Positions 4,853 through 16,682 of a DNA stretch of 21,256 nucleotides are shown here, in pieces. The translations under genes were made by a program, and so were the position numbers. This DNA is from a virus: IMG/VR virus record IMGVR_UViG_3300033150_000539, positions 1-21,256 of that record; one strand, written 5' to 3'. Position 1 is the stretch's first letter. Every line of letters begins with the position of its first letter. The notes under the pieces were generated by a model. That model saw only the letters and a program-made list of their open reading frames with translations, did not search any database and was not told the origin of the DNA.

Positions 4853-5498
4853 CTTTAAACATTTCCTCCTGAGGAATCTCAACTCCCCAACTCGGTACAA
4901 GAAAGTACCGAGAAGGCAGTTTCAAATTAATATCAAAGTAATTTGCCTCAGAGAACTTCAAAGGTACCTCCTTTACACCGCCATCTGTAAAAACAATCCT
5001 TGTTAGTTTCTCTTTGACTTGTTGAAACTCTTTATTAAAGGTTCTGCTATTCGTTCGACATACGACACCTTCGGGCGAATAAAACCAAACCCCTATCGTT
5101 ATATCTCGCCCTCTCAAACGCTCAAGTACGTAACCTCTATGTACCTGTTTAAGAGTGCGATTATGACTCCCCGCGTTTGCAGGAAGTACCACTTTCTTCT
5201 GCGCCCTTTCCTTATCAGTAATACAATAAAAATCAGGAGCTAATACAGAACCGAGCTCTTCAGGAGTAAACTTCACCAACCGAACAGTTACTGGGGAATA
5301 ACTCAAGCGAACTTCTCCTTCAACGAGCTCACTCCCCTCTAACTGAACGCCTCTCGAGAGAGCCTCTTGAAGAAATCGGTTCTTTGTACTAACAGACATG
5401 TTTCCTTCCTTCCACAACCAGGTCCCTACTAATGTACCATCTTTATCTACAATATACCCAATCTTAGACTCTATCTCTTTGACAAACTGGTTAGCCAC
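4836..5498 (-). CDS. Hypothetical phage protein, 220 aa
   Basis: I do not recognise this protein. It is soluble-looking, mixed alpha/beta, with no membrane segment. Beta-rich stretches include ITIGVWFYSPEGVVCRT and LKLPSRYFLVPSWGVEI near the C-terminus. The start is GTG (5498), seven bases after GGAGG, and lies inside the last codons of the portal fusion gene (28-base overlap), so the two are coupled. The end overlaps the next gene. Between portal and terminase genes one might expect a head-completion or packaging factor, but nothing in the sequence shows this. Confidence 0.7.
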   Translation of the reverse strand: MANQFVKEIESKIGYIVDKDGTLVGTWLWKEGNMSVSTKNRFLQEALSRGVQLEGSELVEGEVRLSYSPVTVRLVKFTPEELGSVLAPDFYCITDKERAQKKVVLPANAGSHNRTLKQVHRGYVLERLRGRDITIGVWFYSPEGVVCRTNSRTFNKEFQQVKEKLTRIVFTDGGVKEVPLKFSEANYFDINLKLPSRYFLVPSWGVEIPQEEMFKDVKES

Positions 5499-8400
5499 TT
5501 CGTAGCCTCCTTCCGTGTTTTAAAGGTAGAGAGTTTTTCATAAATATCAACCAAATTCGTCCTGCCCTCCGTTACAGCGGAAACTATCTTATCCATCAAG
5601 ATATCTAAGTCCTCTTTCTTAACTTTTAAAGTCTTCTCAAGAAGATCTCGCACGTCTTTAAGAGTAACGAGCGTCTTCCTAGGAGGTGCTGCCTTCGCTT
5701 TCTTTGGAACCTCTTTTGGTTTTGGTTCCTTGCTTGGCATCTTCTCCTTCTCAGGTGCTCTTAAGAATTTATCGATCGCGTCCTTAATGCGTTTGCGAAT
5801 ATCTTCGCCCTCCTTTTTAGCTGCGCCCTCAAACAACCCGACCAGTTCCTCGATACCAACATCCTCCTTAACATGTGCCCACAATAGCTGTGGAGTTAAC
5901 CCTTTTACTTGGTCCCTCGTCAAGCCGAGGCGCGTCAAAGCTTCAAAAACTCTTTGCCACATAGGATGCTTGCTAATAAGAGTTTCAGGTCTAACAACAA
6001 GGTCTTGAAGGAGTGACTCCATAAAAAGGAACAACTCAGGGTCACTAAAATACAAGATAGAAGGATTACTTATGTATGTAGCAAAAACCTCCGCAAAAGA
6101 TTCGTCGATACTCTGCAACGAGTACAAGCGCAAGGGAAGGGCCCAATTTCTTAATGCCGTTTGAAGTTTAGGATAAATAGGCTTAAAGACTTCGTCCCTA
6201 AAAATGTCTCTTGATCCCAAGAAAAAGCTGCCTAACGTATTCTTTTCACTCGCGTCTAACATCTCGCTCATGTACCCCATAAATTTCTGGGCCTCTTTTT
6301 CGGTAAGATAGGGCAGAGTCTGTTCATAAAAAGGTATTAAAATCCTCTCTCTATAAACAAAGGCAAACGCATCTCTCATTGAAGAACGCGCAACAAAATG
6401 TCTTTCAAAAACATGATGCCCTAACTCGTGAAGGAACTGAAAAGTATCTCCTGTAGTCGTTATGGAACCGACAAACGACTTTGAAAAATCCTTATAAGAT
6501 CCTTCCAAGGAATAAGAGGCGTCATAACGAGAGACATCGGATAATTTAATACTCGCCAGGCCGTCCCAAAAGGATGATACTCTTAACGAGGGGTGTGCTT
6601 GTAATATATCCATCAGTTTATCACGAAACTCAGAATCAACATGCGATATTCGCGAAAGAATCTTTTCAGGAGTTTGAGTCGCTCGCCAAGGAGCCGTACG
6701 GGCCTTGCGAACCCTATCTATCCACTTTGCATAGGAGGTTGGGGACCAGAAATTCGCAGCGAGAAGCTCTCGAAAAGCGGTCATCCCAACGATATCCTCT
6801 CTATGCGGGCTAAAAATCGACGCCCGAAACATGTGAATAAAAAACTCTCGAGAGTCAAAGTAAGCCTTAGGAGGGAGATCAAAAAGCTTCAAGGACAAAT
6901 CCTTGAAAGGCTCAAAGTTCCCCTCCAACCACGGATCCTTCAATTCAGCAGGCAAAAACTTCTCTAAATAACCATCCCACAACGACTTTCTCGCCCTCTC
7001 CATTACAGACATCAACTCGGCAACAAACGGAGAGCTTGGATATTGAAAATTTTGCCGAAGAAGGATATTTAAAGCCGTCGCATCAACAAAAGCTGCGCGA
7101 ATCTGATCCTCGGAAAACGATGCCGGAATCTCAAGAACATTTCGAATTGCGTCGTATCTAGGTTGCGTAAGAGCCTTGTGTAAACGTACCTCCTTAAATA
7201 ACGAAACGTATGAAGGTTCGCGTAACTGAGGGGTTTTCTTTAACGCATCGACTATCTTTTTATCGATACGTTCAACAATATCCGAAAAAGCGAGTGCTAC
7301 TTCTTTCGCCGGAACGTGAAGATTTTTTAAACTTATTTTCTCCCCAATCCACTTATTCACAGCTGCCTGAGATATATTTGAAATAGGCTCAAGAACACAT
7401 CTACAGTTATGCCCGCATCTAACTCCGTATCCGGGCCAAGTCTGGAGTAACTCTAACATAGAAGGCCTAAAAACTCTCCCCTGAAGTGCTGCACAATCTT
7501 CACAGTTACCGCTCCAGAGACATTTACCGTTTCTCATAACATAAAGAGTGTGCCACTTAGGAAGGGTCACATCGTAAACTTTGCCCTTGTAATAAGTACG
7601 ATGTATTACCGCATCGCTAACAAAGCTTAAGTCACTAGGGACTGAATCAATCCCTAAAGGAACTTTGTGATAAAAAGAAACCTTTGCATATTTAATTAAA
7701 TCTTCAGAAAGAGTTCTCCTGAGTCCCTCTCCAACATATACAAAACATTGATGGTCGGGGGTTACTAATAGGTCAGTCTGATTACCTTCAAAATGAATCA
7801 TCTCCCCGTCGTACTCAAATGACTGATAAGCAACCGGTTTCACCCACTCAACTTGGGACAGGTCTCTAGGATTAATACTCAACATCTTCTCCGATCCATC
7901 TAAGTCTTTAAAAAACTTCCAGCCTTTATCCGTTAACACCCGTGTCTCTTCATCATAACATGTAACATCATCACTAATACCTACCCACCTCAAAAGAACT
8001 CCCTGAGTTTCCTCAAAGAGCCTTGAAACAAGAACCAGCGGAAGATTTGCAAAGAGTGTAACAAATCCTGCAATGGCGATAACGGAGCGCATGAAATTGT
8101 CAAAATCCTTCTTAACCTGCTCCCAACTACCTCTTTTTGCCTCATTATGTATAGTATCTAACCGATTCTTCCAATTCCGAATGGCTTCTTCCCGCAGGCG
8201 TCGATCGTGTTCTTCAATTTCCTTATTAATCACGTCTTTGTCAAAAGTGTCTAACCCCCAAAATTGAGCTACTCGCTCATAACCAAGATCTACCGCGTCC
8301 TCTTCATATGAGTCAAGTATCCCTTCAACCGATAAAAGAAGCGGTACGTAAGAAGGGAGGACAGATGCCGTCTGACGTAACATAACCCGCTCTTCAAACG

Positions 8401-9751
8401 AGGAACGATAATCTAGCAATAACTTCTTTAAATCATCTTGCATCGATTTCAAAAGGTTCATTCGTTTCAACACAAACCTGGCCGTTCTTTCATCAGGAAG
8501 CAGTGACAAATTCTTCAGTTGCTCGACCTTCTCAAGCGAGAGTGCTCGGGTAAGATCAAGTTCGTGCTCAGGGGCCGTTAACGGTACAACCGGCTCTTCT
8601 TGAGAAGGTTGTTGCGATTTACCCAAAGGTGTCAATCCCTGAGGTTGCATCACAGAAATCTGATCACCTCCCTTCACTGGAGGGAGGTACATAAACTGTC
8701 TTGCTTCGTTAGGCGAAATCAACCCCGATTTTGTCCCTTCAATTATTCTCTGGAGAGAATGAGCGGGTGGCACCTTGAACTTAAATGTTACCCCATACGG
8801 CTTAAGAAATCTGTTCAAACGATTCTGAATCGCTCGTGCAACAGTAGGTACAAGTGTTGAGTACATCAAATCTTCATTGGACTCCGCCTGAAGTAAACTA
8901 CTCCCGGGTGGGACGAATCCAAAAGCACTACGTACTAACCAGTCAAGTCTATCTAAGAATGTAGACACCATTTGAATATCAAACTGTTTTACTAACTCAA
9001 TCCACTCGCCTTTTCCCGCACCCCATACAATAGGGATCTTTACTTTATCACCAGCAACCAGAGAAGTTAAGTCCTCCTGAAACTTGTTAACTACGTCTTC
9101 GCTAAGCTCTTCCGGGAATATAAAGGCACCAATTGGTTTTCGGGAGTCAGGGTCGCTCTTAACTAGATTCTTTAAAAGACTCGCAACTTCATAAGTTAAG
9201 GACTCGAGAATAGGAATTCCTTCGCTCGCGTAAGTTTTAGGAACAAGTTGTATATATACTAAATCGTCCGGCTGGAAGCGATAAACCTTACCGAGTCCAA
9301 CTTGTTGAATATACCCGCGCAGGCGCCCATCCCTTTCATAAACAGGATGAAAAGTCGCTGCATCTCTGGCGGTAAAACCGGTTAAACGACCACCGACAGT
9401 CTTCAAAGGAACCAAAACACCCCTGTTCAAAACAAGTATATCTACAGTCAAAGCAATCAAAGTATCTCGAAACGTTTCTCCAGTTACAGTCTCGCGAACG
9501 AATATGAGATCAACAACTTCTTTCTTCTTTAACCCTAACTGTACATCATACTCCCGTGGCAAATCAGCAACTGCGCTGGCAATCTGTTCTACACAACGTC
9601 TAACAATACTAGTCTCTCGATAAATTTGGCGTAGCTCAGACGCAGAAAGAATGGACGTCAAACTCAAGGCCAGGCTAGTCGATATTGAAGCCTCACCTAC
9701 TGCCTTCTCTCGAACTTTCTGTTCCTTTTTCTCTTCGAGCTGTCTTTCCAC
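5471..9751 (-). CDS. Portal-MuF-metallopeptidase fusion interrupted by an intein
   Basis: This 1426 aa precursor joins several domains. Residues about 35-335 are a phage portal (YRETSIVRRCVEQIASAVADLP, then FVPPGSSLLQAESNEDLM), the dodecameric ring through which DNA passes. Residues about 480-790 are a MuF-type minor head domain. Its cysteine motif C-E-D-C-A-A-L-Q-G-R-V-F and later WPGYGVRCGHNCRCVLEP are split by an intein at 598-749. A hydrophobic stretch (556-580) precedes the intein. The C-terminal third has a zinc peptidase signature, FLHELGHHVFERHF (His1108, Glu1109, His1112), with SIDESFAEVFATY (Glu1217 or Glu1221) as likely third ligand. Residues 1330-1360 are a Lys/Pro-rich linker before a helical tail. 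The start is GTG at 9751 with AGGAGG upstream. After splicing the protein would be 1274 aa. Portal-MuF fusions exist; the added peptidase is unusual. Confidence 0.88.
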   Translation of the reverse strand: MERQLEEKKEQKVREKAVGEASISTSLALSLTSILSASELRQIYRETSIVRRCVEQIASAVADLPREYDVQLGLKKKEVVDLIFVRETVTGETFRDTLIALTVDILVLNRGVLVPLKTVGGRLTGFTARDAATFHPVYERDGRLRGYIQQVGLGKVYRFQPDDLVYIQLVPKTYASEGIPILESLTYEVASLLKNLVKSDPDSRKPIGAFIFPEELSEDVVNKFQEDLTSLVAGDKVKIPIVWGAGKGEWIELVKQFDIQMVSTFLDRLDWLVRSAFGFVPPGSSLLQAESNEDLMYSTLVPTVARAIQNRLNRFLKPYGVTFKFKVPPAHSLQRIIEGTKSGLISPNEARQFMYLPPVKGGDQISVMQPQGLTPLGKSQQPSQEEPVVPLTAPEHELDLTRALSLEKVEQLKNLSLLPDERTARFVLKRMNLLKSMQDDLKKLLLDYRSSFEERVMLRQTASVLPSYVPLLLSVEGILDSYEEDAVDLGYERVAQFWGLDTFDKDVINKEIEEHDRRLREEAIRNWKNRLDTIHNEAKRGSWEQVKKDFDNFMRSVIAIAGFVTLFANLPLVLVSRLFEETQGVLLRWVGISDDVTCYDEETRVLTDKGWKFFKDLDGSEKMLSINPRDLSQVEWVKPVAYQSFEYDGEMIHFEGNQTDLLVTPDHQCFVYVGEGLRRTLSEDLIKYAKVSFYHKVPLGIDSVPSDLSFVSDAVIHRTYYKGKVYDVTLPKWHTLYVMRNGKCLWSGNCEDCAALQGRVFRPSMLELLQTWPGYGVRCGHNCRCVLEPISNISQAAVNKWIGEKISLKNLHVPAKEVALAFSDIVERIDKKIVDALKKTPQLREPSYVSLFKEVRLHKALTQPRYDAIRNVLEIPASFSEDQIRAAFVDATALNILLRQNFQYPSSPFVAELMSVMERARKSLWDGYLEKFLPAELKDPWLEGNFEPFKDLSLKLFDLPPKAYFDSREFFIHMFRASIFSPHREDIVGMTAFRELLAANFWSPTSYAKWIDRVRKARTAPWRATQTPEKILSRISHVDSEFRDKLMDILQAHPSLRVSSFWDGLASIKLSDVSRYDASYSLEGSYKDFSKSFVGSITTTGDTFQFLHELGHHVFERHFVARSSMRDAFAFVYRERILIPFYEQTLPYLTEKEAQKFMGYMSEMLDASEKNTLGSFFLGSRDIFRDEVFKPIYPKLQTALRNWALPLRLYSLQSIDESFAEVFATYISNPSILYFSDPELFLFMESLLQDLVVRPETLISKHPMWQRVFEALTRLGLTRDQVKGLTPQLLWAHVKEDVGIEELVGLFEGAAKKEGEDIRKRIKDAIDKFLRAPEKEKMPSKEPKPKEVPKKAKAAPPRKTLVTLKDVRDLLEKTLKVKKEDLDILMDKIVSAVTEGRTNLVDIYEKLSTFKTRKEATKWLTSLSKR
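7505..7960 (-). mobile_element. Mini-intein (152 aa) within the MuF domain
   Basis: Residues 598-749 of the fusion protein form a Hint-fold protein-splicing element. It begins with Cys (CYDEETRVLTDKGWKFF, block A). Block B is LLVTPDHQCFV (T-x-x-H), block F is YYKGKVYDVTLPKWHTLYV, and block G ends CLWSGN, followed by Cys as the +1 residue of the C-extein. At 152 aa there is no room for a homing endonuclease. The penultimate His of block G is Gly, a variation known in some active inteins. Removing it joins DDVT to CEDCAALQG, restoring a normal MuF motif, which strongly supports these borders. It lies in frame with no stop. Splicing activity is inferred. Confidence 0.92.
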
Positions 9752-10624: not shown

Positions 10625-10909
10625 TTAGCCTCGAAGGAAGTAACCTAAGATAAAACTTATCGCGCTTACGGACCCAGCAATTAACAAAACTTTCGTGAGT
10701 ATCCCTTTTAAGGAGTTCCAAACATCATCAACTCGTAACTTCACCTCTTTCACATCAGAAGCACATTTAGACTGAGCCTGGCACGACTCAGCTACTTTCT
10801 TCTCTAAAGAAGCAATTCGCTCAATTAACTTCTCATTAGTAGATGTATTCCCCTTAACAAGTTCAACTAATAACTCCTCGATTGTAGAAAGCTGTTTTAA
10901 TTCGGTCAT
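10625..10909 (-). CDS. Coiled-coil protein with C-terminal membrane anchor, holin/XhlA-like
   Basis: This 94 aa protein has a helical coiled-coil region (about 10-65, including STNEKLIERIASLEKKVAE) and one membrane segment near its C-terminus (LTKVLLIAGSVSAISFILGYFL, about 70-92). It ends with RG. This layout is that of XhlA-like phage proteins that work with a holin in lysis, but the same shape occurs in many unrelated membrane-bound coiled coils, and no endolysin is nearby. It starts at an ATGA overlap with the preceding GAF-like gene and lacks its own Shine-Dalgarno, so it is probably translated by coupling. It is the last gene of the accessory operon. Confidence 0.6.
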   Translation of the reverse strand: MTELKQLSTIEELLVELVKGNTSTNEKLIERIASLEKKVAESCQAQSKCASDVKEVKLRVDDVWNSLKGILTKVLLIAGSVSAISFILGYFLRG

Positions 10910-11172
10910 TGATACGCATGCGTCCCCGTAATCGCGTTTTGAAGTACTGCTCTGAGAGTAGTATTGTGCTGTAGTCTTAACAAAGCAAGCGCAAGAACCG
11001 AAGCGAAACTTTTTACAAACTCAATCTCTTCTCTAGAAAAGGGTATCTCTTTCTCATCAAAAACCACCATGAAACCCCATTTCCCAATCTCCTCACCTGC
11101 TACAGGAACTGCTAATGCACGGCCTATCTTATTTCCAAACCAATTCAAAGGATCATCAAGTTCCCTCATCAT
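10906..11172 (-). CDS. GAF-domain C-terminal half
   Basis: This 88 aa piece resembles the second half of a GAF domain. GRALAVPVAGEEIGKWGFMVVF matches the strand pair that closes the ligand pocket, and PFSREEIEFVKSFASVLALALLRL matches the final helix. It lacks the first half, which seems to lie in the preceding gene in another frame. No Shine-Dalgarno precedes its ATGATG start. Skipping one G in GAGGGAA (near 11162-11168) would fuse the two frames into one continuous domain. It may therefore be a frameshifted remnant, a sequencing error, or the second product of a coupled pair. Confidence 0.55.
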   Translation of the reverse strand: MMRELDDPLNWFGNKIGRALAVPVAGEEIGKWGFMVVFDEKEIPFSREEIEFVKSFASVLALALLRLQHNTTLRAVLQNAITGTHAYQ

Positions 11173-11440
11173 TTAAAAGTCGTTCGAGCCAACCCGCAGG
11201 CAGCTCAAAACCCCCCAGGGGATAGGATACGTCACTCTTAAAGTAACCAAACAGGGGAAAGCTTACGGCACCATCCTTCTCAAAAGGTGAAACAACGATG
11301 TTGGCCTCAAATGCCGCTCCCATAATCTCAACACACTTTTGAACTTTTTGTCCATCAATTAAGTTCCTCGCAAGAATATTAAAGACCTGCGGATAAACAT
11401 TAATTAGCGCTGTTAGACCTGACCTTAATTGAGGATCCAT
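11156..11440 (-). CDS. GAF-domain-like N-terminal half (putative)
   Basis: This frame encodes about 94 aa from the ATG at 11440 (MDPQLRSGLTALINVYPQVF); the frame is open further upstream to 11527, inside the response regulator. The start is weakly supported (GAAGG nearby). It reads like the helical entry and first strands of a GAF domain (KVQKCVEIMGAAFEANIVVSP). It ends in ERLLNDEGT just where the next frame takes up a GAF C-terminal half. It overlaps the response regulator by 41 bases and the next piece by 17. The original may have been a receiver-GAF fusion later broken by two +1 shifts. Confidence 0.45.
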   Translation of the reverse strand: MDPQLRSGLTALINVYPQVFNILARNLIDGQKVQKCVEIMGAAFEANIVVSPFEKDGAVSFPLFGYFKSDVSYPLGGFELPAGWLERLLNDEGT

Positions 11441-11762
11441 CGAGACCTTCAAACGCAACGAGTCCAACAGGCAAAACACCATGAAACCCGCAAATTTGGG
11501 CAACCTTACGTACTCTATCTGAGGCATAACCGGTCACCAAAATAGCTCTAGAAGGATCAAACTGATCCAAAACCGAGAATACTTGCCCATTAAGTACAAC
11601 AACATCCAAAATGTAAAAATCGGGTTTTACTTCAACGTTCAGCTTTTTAAACTCCTCAATCGTCTCACAAGTACAACATTCACAATCTTCAAATCTACCC
11701 TCAAGGAGCGTTTTAAAATAAGTTCTCATCAAGGCATCATCGTCTAAAACCAAAACCTTCAT
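11400..11762 (-). CDS. Response-regulator receiver-domain protein
   Basis: This 120 aa protein is a single CheY-like receiver. MKVLVLDDDALMR gives the acidic pocket (Asp7-9), DFYILDVVV the phospho-acceptor Asp53, and AILVTGYASD the switch Thr77. The conserved Lys normally found after the fifth strand is missing: the text reads GVLPVGLVAFE. The tail is also short and lacks the usual last helix, consistent with a frameshift near the end. There is no output domain in this frame; GAF-like pieces follow. I start at the ATG at 11762, with GGAG about 8 bases upstream; a GTG one codon earlier is possible. It follows the SQD1-like gene by 12 bases. Phage-borne receivers are uncommon. Confidence 0.75.
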   Translation of the reverse strand: MKVLVLDDDALMRTYFKTLLEGRFEDCECCTCETIEEFKKLNVEVKPDFYILDVVVLNGQVFSVLDQFDPSRAILVTGYASDRVRKVAQICGFHGVLPVGLVAFEGLDGSSIKVRSNSAN

Positions 11763-11774
11763 CACATTACTCCG

Positions 11775-14054: not shown

Positions 14055-15059
14055 TCATCTCCTCCCTTTCAACCAGAAGTCAAAATAATCGTACGCTTCG
14101 GGCCATTTTATCCGCAAGATTCGACGCTTCTCAGGGTCGGCGTTCGCATAAAACGCAAATGCTTCGGAAAACCCTTCTTCGGGATCCTGAAGACTAGGGA
14201 GAGTCAGGACAGGCGTATCGAGTGGATCCCGCATAAGCTCTCTATAAAACCGAAGTCGTACAAAATTACGGTTAACACACGACCGTTCACGCCCGTAATT
14301 CTTAACCGACTGATCAAAAAACCGAGCACCGTCCGGAAGAACTCTACTTATATAAGGAGCATAAACCTTACTCCCAAAATCCACATAGTGACCCGGAAAA
14401 CGGTCAGAGAAGCGACTCTGAATAAAGTGGCCAGCTTCGTGCAAAAAAGTGTGTCCATACTCGGAAATGTGGTGAGTTACGGGATAAACTTGAATACTTA
14501 TAGCTCCGGAGCCCTGCGGAAACGCAAGATCGGCGAACTTTACTACTTCAGGGTCAAATCCATAGGTCCTTGGAATCTTTATCCCCAAATAGGTTCTAAT
14601 ACGCGCTCTATCAACAGCAGAAAACTCTGCATAAAACTCTTTTGTAAGCATCCTCTCCAAACTATTAGACGATCTTAAAATGTTCGCGTCTGTATAAAAT
14701 CCATAAGGAGCCGCGGTAGCGGTAGTAGCACGATGAAAGGATAAACTAATCTGTTGAAACTCCTTCTCATAAGGTGTTCCTTTAATAACATTAAGAAAAG
14801 AGTCCATTTGAGCTAAAATCTCCTTACGAACCTTAGGAGGTGGCACCGCCGGAAATTCTAAGAAATGATACGATTCAAACCCTGCGTTACTCAACGCTTT
14901 ATTGACAGTTCGGGAATCAACAACCTTTATAGGAGACTTTCTCACGAAGCTAACCATCCAAAGGAAATATTTCCTATATTTCTTCTTTACAATAGGGATC
15001 TTTCTCCCTCCCTTCGTAATCCACTTCTCTATCCATTCAGATGGAACTTCAAACTTCAT
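14055..15059 (-). CDS. HExxH zinc metallopeptidase, paralogue of the portal-fusion C-terminus
   Basis: This 334 aa protein has TFLHEAGHFIQSRF (His207, Glu208, His211), the zinc and catalytic residues of a gluzincin-like peptidase. DPEEGFSEAFAFY (Glu295 or Glu299) is a probable third ligand and matches the layout of the portal fusion (FLHELGH...DESFAEVFATY). No signal peptide or membrane segment is seen. The N-terminus is basic (WITKGGRKIPIVKKKYRKYF). The start has GAGGAG 7 bases upstream and overlaps the end of the preceding small gene by 11 bases. Substrate is unknown: candidates are phage head proteins during maturation or host proteins. Sequence similarity outside the motifs is low to the eye. 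Confidence 0.75.
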   Translation of the reverse strand: MKFEVPSEWIEKWITKGGRKIPIVKKKYRKYFLWMVSFVRKSPIKVVDSRTVNKALSNAGFESYHFLEFPAVPPPKVRKEILAQMDSFLNVIKGTPYEKEFQQISLSFHRATTATAAPYGFYTDANILRSSNSLERMLTKEFYAEFSAVDRARIRTYLGIKIPRTYGFDPEVVKFADLAFPQGSGAISIQVYPVTHHISEYGHTFLHEAGHFIQSRFSDRFPGHYVDFGSKVYAPYISRVLPDGARFFDQSVKNYGRERSCVNRNFVRLRFYRELMRDPLDTPVLTLPSLQDPEEGFSEAFAFYANADPEKRRILRIKWPEAYDYFDFWLKGRR

Positions 15060-15309
15060 ATCGATCTCCTCGATAAGGATCTACACTATATTCAAACCAT
15101 TCATCCTTATCGTTCAAGGCTTTAACTGCTTTTTTGGCGTCTTCCAAAGACACATACCTCCTTAAAACTGCCCAATCCTGAAATGCAAACAAACCCCTTC
15201 GGTACTTCTCCTTGGGCCGCCAGTAGATAGGAATCTTACGCTTCCTGGCTTTGTGTCTATACTTGGGAACTTCACGATCAAACTTCGATTGAAAGTCCGT
15301 CTCTTGCAA
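15049..15309 (-). CDS. Small basic hypothetical protein
   Basis: This 86 aa protein starts with TTG at 15309, 9 bases after GGAGG, inside the end of the MBL-fold gene (32-base overlap). Its first half is very basic (KYRHKARKRKIPIYWRPKEKYRRG) and its end acidic and aromatic (NDKDEWFEYSVDPYRGDRY). I do not recognise a family. The basic stretch could bind nucleic acid, but this is a guess. It ends inside the start of the metallopeptidase. Confidence 0.6.
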   Translation of the reverse strand: MQETDFQSKFDREVPKYRHKARKRKIPIYWRPKEKYRRGLFAFQDWAVLRRYVSLEDAKKAVKALNDKDEWFEYSVDPYRGDRYEV

Positions 15310-15979
15310 TAGTCAGATCCTCCCTCTCTAAAATCTCCTTTACTTTTGTATCTCCCTTTAAAACAGGTTGACGCCCAAGATGAGTAAAAATGACTTTCTT
15401 CCAACCCAACTGGGAAGCGTAACGAAGTTGAGATTTCATAGACGTATGTCCAAAAGGCTCCCCTCCTTTTTCCTTTACTCTTATTATAGGGCGATTTATG
15501 GCGGAGCCGTCACCAATGTAAACCCGAAGATTCCTTAATGTTCCCCATCCAATACGAGGACGAATAATATCTGTAAAGATGCCAACTTCGTCATTTATAA
15601 CAACGCCCCACATAGGACATCGAATCGAATGAAAACACGAAACTGCCTTTAAAGAAACATCACCCCGCTTAAATGGGGGCCGTCGGAACGACGTCGGGAT
15701 AGCCTTCCAGTCACGGATCAACTGGCGGCGTACTAAAGAAGTACATACAAGAATCGTTGGAATTTCCTTGTGTTTTAAACCACTTACATGGTCGCTATGT
15801 GTATGGCTAACATACAAAAAATCTACATCCTTAAGCTTATCAAAAAACGCCTCTTCACCACAATCTATTTGAAAGCGGGTCTTACGGGTCTCAACAATTA
15901 TACCAGTTCTTAATTTATGATGAGGAGAGCTCTCTTCAATCATCCCCTTCGAACCTAAAAACGTAATCTTATACTTCAT
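15278..15979 (-). CDS. Metallo-beta-lactamase-fold hydrolase
   Basis: This 233 aa protein has the metal-binding signature SHTHSDHVSG (His59, His61, Asp63, His64), preceded by FQIDCGEE and LYVSHTH as in the MBL fold. Further probable ligands are His117 (CFHSIR), Asp157 (YIGDGSA) and His200 (IFTHLGRQPV). The fold covers nucleases (RNase Z, SNM1 and DNA exonucleases), phosphodiesterases such as PhnP, and others. The single domain and short length do not show a beta-CASP insert. Its substrate is therefore open; a nucleic-acid or cyclic phosphate role is plausible beside a phage ligase. It directly abuts the SpeD-like gene. Confidence 0.8.
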   Translation of the reverse strand: MKYKITFLGSKGMIEESSPHHKLRTGIIVETRKTRFQIDCGEEAFFDKLKDVDFLYVSHTHSDHVSGLKHKEIPTILVCTSLVRRQLIRDWKAIPTSFRRPPFKRGDVSLKAVSCFHSIRCPMWGVVINDEVGIFTDIIRPRIGWGTLRNLRVYIGDGSAINRPIIRVKEKGGEPFGHTSMKSQLRYASQLGWKKVIFTHLGRQPVLKGDTKVKEILEREDLTIARDGLSIEV

Positions 15980-16336
15980 TTAATTTCGCCCCCTCTCAAG
16001 AAAGGAGGAATCCATCCTCTTCGCCTTAAAAAAATCCTTCACATATTTCTGAATCTTTAAAGAGTCAAAAGCCTTACAACTAAAAACATCAATATAAGCA
16101 GCATTGCATACAAAAGCAAAATGACCCGAAACCAGAGAAGTCTCGATTAACTGCACAAGGGTGTACCCTTCAGTCGGACCCCGTCCAAACCATTCGATAA
16201 TAGGATCACCAAATCTCTTAACGTCAAGTATATCACAGAGTCCGATAACAAATTCCCTTAGCTTCCTCTCACTAGTAATAAGAACTCGATCGCACTCATA
16301 TAAATCTAATATCAGATGGTACCCCCAACCTTTCAT
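15980..16336 (-). CDS. Second SpeD-like protein (AdoMet decarboxylase-related)
   Basis: This 118 aa protein belongs to the S-adenosylmethionine decarboxylase fold. It opens MKGWGYHLILDLYECD, similar to GRHILIDVFEV of its neighbour, and has QLIETSLVSGHFAFVCN followed by AAYIDVFSCKAF. Aligned without gaps from the shared Cys, Ser67, His72 and Cys87 fall on Ser62, His67 and Cys82 of the neighbouring SpeD, so it may also form a pyruvoyl group. The HTWPE segment and the Glu before the cleavage Ser are not kept (Thr here), so substrate may differ. I start it at ATG 16336, after GGGGAG; a longer frame to 16405 would overlap SpeD by 110 bases. The overlap chosen is 41 bases. Confidence 0.72.
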   Translation of the reverse strand: MKGWGYHLILDLYECDRVLITSERKLREFVIGLCDILDVKRFGDPIIEWFGRGPTEGYTLVQLIETSLVSGHFAFVCNAAYIDVFSCKAFDSLKIQKYVKDFFKAKRMDSSFLERGRN

Positions 16337-16682
16337 CACGGATTGCTCCCCTCTCAACAGTTGTGACCTTAGAATATCCTCCCTGAAGAAAGGATAGAAT
16401 CTCACGCATGGCGAGATCCAAGTTAACAGTTTTTCCGCACGTGAACAAATCTACAGCGGCGTAAGAAGCTTCGGGCCAGGTATGAATAGTGAAGTGAGAC
16501 TCTGAAATTATAACAACACAACTTACGCCATGAGGTTCAAAATGATGCGCGTGTGAATGAAGAACTGTTGCGCCTGCCTTACGGGCGGCTCGAACAAGCC
16601 GCCGGAGAATCAGCTTCTCATCATCCAAGATTTTAAAGGGAACTTCAAAAACATCAATCAAAATATGCCTACCAACGCTCAT
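16296..16682 (-). CDS. speD: S-adenosylmethionine decarboxylase, class 1B
   Basis: This 128 aa protein is a prokaryotic class 1B SpeD, which makes decarboxylated SAM for spermidine-type polyamines. It is a self-cleaving pyruvoyl enzyme. VVIISESHFTIHTWPEASYA holds the cleavage site Glu61-Ser62 and His67, and VDLFTCGKTV holds Cys82, all where expected. Length is typical. Phage SpeD homologues exist and some have shifted to decarboxylate arginine or ornithine, so the substrate should not be taken for granted. No aminopropyltransferase is seen in the window. The start has an ATGA overlap with the methyltransferase and a GGGGG ribosome site. Confidence 0.93.
   Translation of the reverse strand: MSVGRHILIDVFEVPFKILDDEKLILRRLVRAARKAGATVLHSHAHHFEPHGVSCVVIISESHFTIHTWPEASYAAVDLFTCGKTVNLDLAMREILSFLQGGYSKVTTVERGAIRDERLGVPSDIRFI

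Follow-up and report, generated by a model that had tools for sequence, protein, structure and literature searches.

A Gly-Asn mini-intein at a MuF cysteine motif in a phage portal-MuF fusion protein

Inteins in the minor head proteins of phages are already known. The minor head protein gene of cryoconite phage AB09 carries an intein given as a 0.8-kb homing endonuclease (PMC7468147), and that of coliphage vKMB36 carries one of about 900 bp (PMC11162368); as far as the accessible parts of the two reports go, both elements sit in a minor head protein like the one studied here, but they are larger and no portal fusion is mentioned. Phage portal proteins can also host inteins (the PORT inteins), although at a site that differs from ours, and the RDF intein of mycobacteriophage Bethlehem is an active class 1 intein with a penultimate Gly, like the type described below, but it has an endonuclease and occupies another gene and site (both from the available text of PMC5050341). 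The Gly-Asn inteins found in the RNR, NAMPT, and ThyX genes of phages such as Stab20, a T5-like Salmonella phage, PTm1, and P1201 match our element in their N-terminal half and share its penultimate Gly at the C-terminal end (...GN/S or GN/C; slashes mark splice junctions). However, they are 304-345 aa long, which leaves room for a homing endonuclease (HEN), and reside in nucleotide-metabolism genes, whereas our element has 152 aa and lies in a head protein. Among open-access titles and abstracts on inteins in head, MuF, minor capsid, and portal proteins, we found no report of an intein at a MuF cysteine motif. As an insertion site, the one described here (MuF-a) is new but of a known kind.

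We analyzed positions 1 to 21,256 of IMG/VR virus record IMGVR_UViG_3300033150_000539 (21,256 nucleotides; hereafter, the window), in which residues 598-749 of a 1426-aa ORF form an insert (Table 1). A sequence-only reading had proposed an endonuclease-less mini-intein of 152 aa at 7505-7960, placed exactly at the first Cys of the MuF CxxC motif in a portal-MuF fusion. Our analysis bore out the element, its exact coordinates, and the nature of its host. The insert begins with CYDEETRVLTDKGW, ends in SGN, has a mass of 17.7 kDa, and is followed directly by the codon (7504-7502) for the Cys of CEDCAALQG. Class 1 residues are present, i.e., C1, the TxxH of block B (T67-P68-D69-H70), N152, and a Cys at +1.

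Table 1. Coordinates of the intein, its host gene, and a further gene in the window
Feature	Position	Strand	Basis
Portal-MuF fusion ORF, 1426 aa including the intein, GTG start; portal, intein-split MuF, C-terminal HExxH...ESFAE zincin-like region	5471..9751	-	phrog_12; zincin from motif only
N-extein, residues 1-597, ends ...GISDDVT	7961..9751	-	sequence
Mini-intein, 152 aa (C1 ... N152)	7505..7960	-	sequence, profiles, predicted structure, structure comparison
Intein blocks A-B, residues 1-75 (C1; T67-P68-D69-H70)	7736..7960	-	85% identity to sister virus
Linker, residues 76-120; place of the homing endonuclease in full-length relatives	7601..7735	-	39.5% identity to sister
Intein blocks F-G, residues 121-152 (YDVTLPKWH...SGN; D130, H137, G151, N152)	7505..7600	-	87.5% identity to sister
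+1 Cys codon, first Cys of MuF CEDC	7502..7504	-	sequence
C-extein, CEDCAALQG...CGHNCRC (remaining MuF; b site CGHN/CRC empty) and zincin-like region	5474..7504	-	sequence, alignment
MBL-fold gene, uninterrupted VSHTHSDH motif	15278..15979	-	sequence; sister copy interrupted

Searching the 152 aa against intein profiles, as had been suggested, gave matches to the N-terminal profile TIGR01445 (intein_Nterm; residues 1-74, E 1.2e-4, 23.0 bits vs cutoff 24.5), the C-terminal profile TIGR01443 (intein_Cterm; residues 127-147, E 0.11, 12.8 bits vs cutoff 15.6), and PF14890 (E 0.03, 14.6 bits vs cutoff 35.8); these matches are weak and below the curated cutoffs, yet they are correctly placed. No endonuclease domain was detected in the insert by Pfam at E up to 1, and the linker spans 45 aa. 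The N-terminal part resembles intein stretches in the RNR and NAMPT genes of named phages (E down to 1e-11), and the 40 named-phage records matched at E up to 1e-3 bear NAMPT, RNR, DNA polymerase, thymidylate synthase, methylase, terminase, and "portal" annotations. In addition, the AlphaFold2 model of the intein (pLDDT 87.2, pTM 0.83) has a Hint fold, with 6zgq as its best PDB match (Foldseek E 6.8e-8; VIA Z 18.4; rmsd 2.3 over 147 residues), and all of the top 50 PDB entries by Z belong to inteins (in part given as intein homing endonucleases), to bacterial intein-like (BIL) domains, or to hedgehog Hint domains. The identity of the insert as an intein is far beyond chance.

Block F holds D130 and H137, the former presumably at the F:4 place (in a block numbering partly taken from the accessible part of PMC4031507). 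Although 6zgq is a class 3 intein, a class 3 assignment of our element is ruled out by the presence of C1 and by D130, instead of Cys, at that place. With G151 as its penultimate residue, the intein falls outside the canonical His-Asn subtype; the penultimate His is an assisting residue that is common but does not define class 1, according to the available text of PMC4031507. The missing His, the narrow failure of the N- and C-terminal intein profiles to reach their curated cutoffs, and a BIL domain among the structural matches (2lwy, Z 15.1) would all suit a decayed or cleavage-only Hint domain, which would cleave or stay as a structural part of MuF. However, C1, the block B TPDH, N152, and the +1 Cys are all there, and the family and sister sequences considered below argue further against such a domain.

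The host assignment rests on both exteins. Residues 38-385 of the N-extein match portal proteins (PHROGs phrog_12, E 1.1e-17), with a Pfam portal match (E 0.0013) under its cutoff. Once the flanks of the intein were joined in silico, PF04233 (Phage_Mu_F) was matched at profile positions 67-111 (E 2.3e-4; 22.3 bits vs cutoff 29.6), and no match to this profile was found in the unspliced ORF (P0001) at E up to 1. The C-extein contains the CxxC..L.G motif followed by the CRC motif (CEDCAALQG...CGHNCRC). Since gp3 of Arthrobacter phage Sonali is annotated as "portal and MuF-like fusion protein", portal-MuF fusions are already known. A PDB sequence search with MuF returned only a chance-level match (E 7.5), and in an AlphaFold2 model of the intein with its MuF flanks (14-row alignment), the post-intein part has a pLDDT of about 31-41, which is too poor to read precursor folding. 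We also observed zincin-like motifs: HExxH...(E)xFAE towards the C-terminal end of the portal-MuF fusion (about 6090-6445, minus strand), and, in similar form (HExxH with EGFSEAF), one in a distinct protein of 334 aa (14055-15059, minus strand) that weakly matches PF07737 (E 0.012).

Our data reveal that MuF has two intein sites, a (filled in the window) and b (HPN/CRC), and this finding is new. The +1 Cys had been regarded as MuF's own metal-motif Cys. It is indeed the first CxxC Cys in the window, but only 12 of the 19 aligned MuF rows have this residue, whereas the b-site Cys is found in all 19; the a-site Cys is thus not universal, and the putative metal site belongs to only some MuF proteins. 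Site b is filled in at least 18 other loci (11 among the best 80 of 123 viral-contig relatives, 4 found by pattern scan, and 3 by the genome-contig scan, the latter in Bacillota, Bacteroidota, and Methanobrevibacter records). These loci carry 15 distinct inteins, 12 of them in the 73-row tree described below (which includes two near-identical pairs, L027/L028 and L053/L056) and 3 outside it. In each case, the insertion lies between HPN (or a variant) and CRC, CRS, or CRT, the later MuF cysteine motif. PF04233 was matched at E 0.047 or better in seven of the nine b-site N-exteins scanned (three of these above the cutoff), and no match was found in those of L027 and L053. The HEN-size b-site inteins in the tree have 339-355 aa, and the minis 142-167 aa (L026, 142 aa; L027/L028, 148; L032, 145; L039, 167). 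In L027, L053, L032, and L039, the long regions C-terminal of the intein are, as we judge from recognised motifs, of the ADP-ribosyltransferase or peptidase type. The b-site inteins therefore resemble ours in lying in the same domain, in having a MuF motif Cys at +1, in belonging to a related intein family, and, for some, in being minis, but they occupy the later cysteine motif.

Site a is uninterrupted in all 13 aligned b-site rows, and site b is uninterrupted in the window. Alignment showed Sonali and the archaeal virus vir080 to be intein-free at both sites, and MuF rows without an insert at site a include these two, L026, L121, and others, so the segment does not look like a conserved, unspliced part of MuF, the finding that would have spoken against an intein. 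A comparison of related phages for empty sites, which had also been proposed, succeeded in part: intein-free MuF exists in other phages, but the exact empty-site pattern had no match, and two scans of five loci each (the same five contigs) gave no empty-site copy among close relatives of the window virus. No further MuF-a intein was found outside this virus family among the loci from the viral-contig scans (distant terminase relatives L111-L117 apart; one of the scans gave the best 80 of 123 relatives), nor among the best 80 of the 84 genome-contig relatives. Similarly, when two b-site stretches of MuF plus intein were compared with named phages by tblastn, no MuF intein was found among the best 50 of 76 and 16 of 16 records, which instead contained inteins in other genes as well as intein-free MuF.

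The relatives themselves come from a scan with four mini-inteins (A1), which detected 123 in viral contigs and 84 in genome contigs (the best 80 of each were considered). The genome-contig relatives among these best 80 span many bacterial and archaeal phyla. Host genes, named in part by motifs we recognised, presumably include terminases, methylases, and sugar epimerases. From the viral loci, the four pattern-scan loci, and five named phages (genome loci left out), we parsed 85 inteins, 73 of them unique, with 22 C-terminal ends set by hand. These 73 end in GN (n = 58), SN (n = 11), SQ, GQ, KN, or HN (n = 1 each), i.e., the penultimate residue is Gly in 59 and His in only 1, and the +1 residue is Ser in 33, Cys in 21, and Thr in 19. 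The predominance of GN over HN makes the penultimate Gly a family trait. Moreover, the accessible part of Kelley 2016 (PMC5050341) reports that a phage intein with a penultimate Gly splices, that changing this Gly to His leaves more precursor and slows splicing, and that a block F His is able to assume the role of the penultimate His; in the window intein, H137 stands in the place of this possible substitute. The earlier view that the penultimate Gly occurs in few active inteins misplaces the emphasis, and Gly as the mark of a weak or rare intein is ruled out by the family norm and by that active phage intein. Within the set, Asp at F:4 tends to go with a +1 Cys and Cys with a +1 Ser or Thr, in a regular-expression reading that is wrong in many rows (20 doubtful) and with phylogeny uncontrolled; this pairing may represent a mechanistic covariation.

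At the same residue, a sister virus carries a 150-aa intein with 71% identity to ours (whole protein, 76%) in four IMG/VR records (L003-L006), which are identical over the stretch compared and have equal scores over the whole protein. Since the window is a metagenomic virus record, an assembly or gene-calling artefact has to be weighed. Its probability is negligible, as the ORF is a single open frame without stops, recurs over its whole length with 100% identity in a second IMG/VR record, and exists in diverged copies that rule an artefact out; one of the four sister records (L003, the same contig as L022) matches a MAG contig (L132, bacterium isolate AUK014) with 99.9% DNA identity over the 1350 bases compared.

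The residues expected to take part in splicing are identical in the window and sister inteins. Outside the linker, identity is of the same order in the two splicing regions (Table 1), the MuF core (86%), and the portal part (82%), and far lower in the linker itself. Synonymous differences are saturated in eight of nine regions (proportion 0.76-0.87) and reach a proportion of 0.69 in the linker, whose dN/dS of 0.30 points to some constraint, so that the contrast between blocks and linker is one of degree. With the splicing blocks conserved, the linker diverged, and synonymous change saturated or close to it, selection probably acts on splicing, and by this comparison the blocks have been retained as strictly as the host MuF domain. 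Most simply, the endonuclease would have been lost before the window and sister viruses split. Blocks conserved like the MuF core, MuF homologues that lack an intein, and Gly-Asn as the family norm together make a decayed or cleavage-only Hint domain very improbable.

We consider it highly likely that the element is a class 1 mini-intein of a large phage and archaeal Gly-Asn family, inserted at MuF-a, self-excising, deprived of its endonuclease, and retained in an essential head protein. Judged from its residues and conservation, it is very probably active. We infer the course of splicing from established intein chemistry. C1 would form a thioester, which the +1 Cys, the leading cysteine of MuF's own CxxC, would take over. 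Cyclisation of N152 would proceed without a penultimate His, probably with help from H137 of block F; an S-N shift would produce a native T-C bond, yielding a 1274-aa portal-MuF protein and the free intein. We propose that the intein, having lost its endonuclease, is kept because an essential head protein would be disrupted whenever splicing failed, and because precise loss seldom happens.

The intein may also act as a switch, with delayed or conditional splicing (redox, metal, or temperature) gating the competence of the portal-MuF protein and head assembly. Such a role would fit the +1 Cys in a putative metal motif, Cys at both C1 and +1, retention without an endonuclease in two diverged viruses, and the conditional splicing under zinc and oxidative stress reported for mycobacterial DnaB inteins (accessible parts of PMC7360933 and PMC6195587). 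Nevertheless, the cost of imprecise loss explains retention equally well, the sequence bears no sign of a switch, and in the one phage intein tested, the penultimate Gly spliced faster than His (PMC5050341, available text); we therefore regard a switch as unlikely.

The window intein and those at site b may be related by descent. In the full 73-row tree, MuF-a and MuF-b inteins group together with L072 and L087 inside (support 95/95), and an earlier 55-row tree, in which some C-terminal ends were wrongly cut, gave 98/92; these trees have few columns (117 in the 73-row tree) and their bootstraps were unsettled. The host gene of L072 is presumably methylase-like. When only the 21 rows with a +1 Cys were used, the grouping had a support of 91/89, with L087 inside, whereas the N-terminal part alone did not recover it and placed MuF-a next to L029 with weak support (78). 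A common origin of MuF-a and MuF-b inteins is thus suggested, although the N-terminal control does not support it. A broader scenario is unlikely as a whole: the two conserved MuF cysteine motifs would be a recurrent intein target in bacterial and archaeal phages (b in many lineages, a in this family), the a-site mini would come from a b lineage and have moved some 30 residues, both sites would supply the needed +1 Cys, and metal-site formation and head assembly would wait for splicing.

Further inteins occur in this virus group. The MBL-fold gene of the sister virus (L019 4230-5594) is split within its HxHxDH motif by a 166-aa mini-intein (VSH/.../SHPDH) with a +1 Ser, so that the window and sister genes form a natural pair without and with the insert. 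In addition, a sulfoquinovose-synthase-like epimerase of the sister virus (G002; L020 2946-5099, minus strand) contains two inteins, one Gly-Asn of 143 aa (KLG/.../TMGEYG) and one His-Asn. At the epimerase site KMG/.../TMGEYG, Nitrososphaerota and other archaeal MAGs (L198, L202-L204) have 349-aa, HEN-size inteins, and the window's own epimerase paralogue resembles UDP-sulfoquinovose synthase (NF041015, E 8.5e-29, under the cutoff). The 73-row tree places the MBL intein with L075/L085 (94/99) and the epimerase intein with L055/L066/L090 (97/88); these separate groupings look like separate acquisitions, and duplication of one intein within the phage is not supported as the source of the other inteins in the sister virus. 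Inteins commonly sit at active-site motifs, and as this is general in the present virus group, the location at a metal motif is not special to MuF. Two other features of the window were observed. Two adjacent AdoMet decarboxylase homologues (15980-16405 and 16296-16682, minus strand) match PF02675 (E 4.4e-19 and 3.6e-35), and the former of the two is divergent and may act on a different substrate. A response-regulator gene that is one 301-aa ORF in the sister (L019 9088-9993) corresponds to three overlapping shorter ORFs in the window (10906-11765, minus strand), which indicates a frameshift in the window or a sequence error.

Collectively, the element is a real, well-placed mini-intein of a known and mostly ordinary kind. 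It adds a natural Gly-Asn mini-intein of 150-152 aa with a +1 Cys that is HEN-less across a long divergence, and it shows one small head-protein domain struck at two cysteine motifs. The family also offers small splicing domains that lack a penultimate His. As some of its b-site inteins have a HEN-size insert and others do not, MuF lends itself well to studying why inteins outlast the loss of their mobility and whether splicing can time virion assembly.
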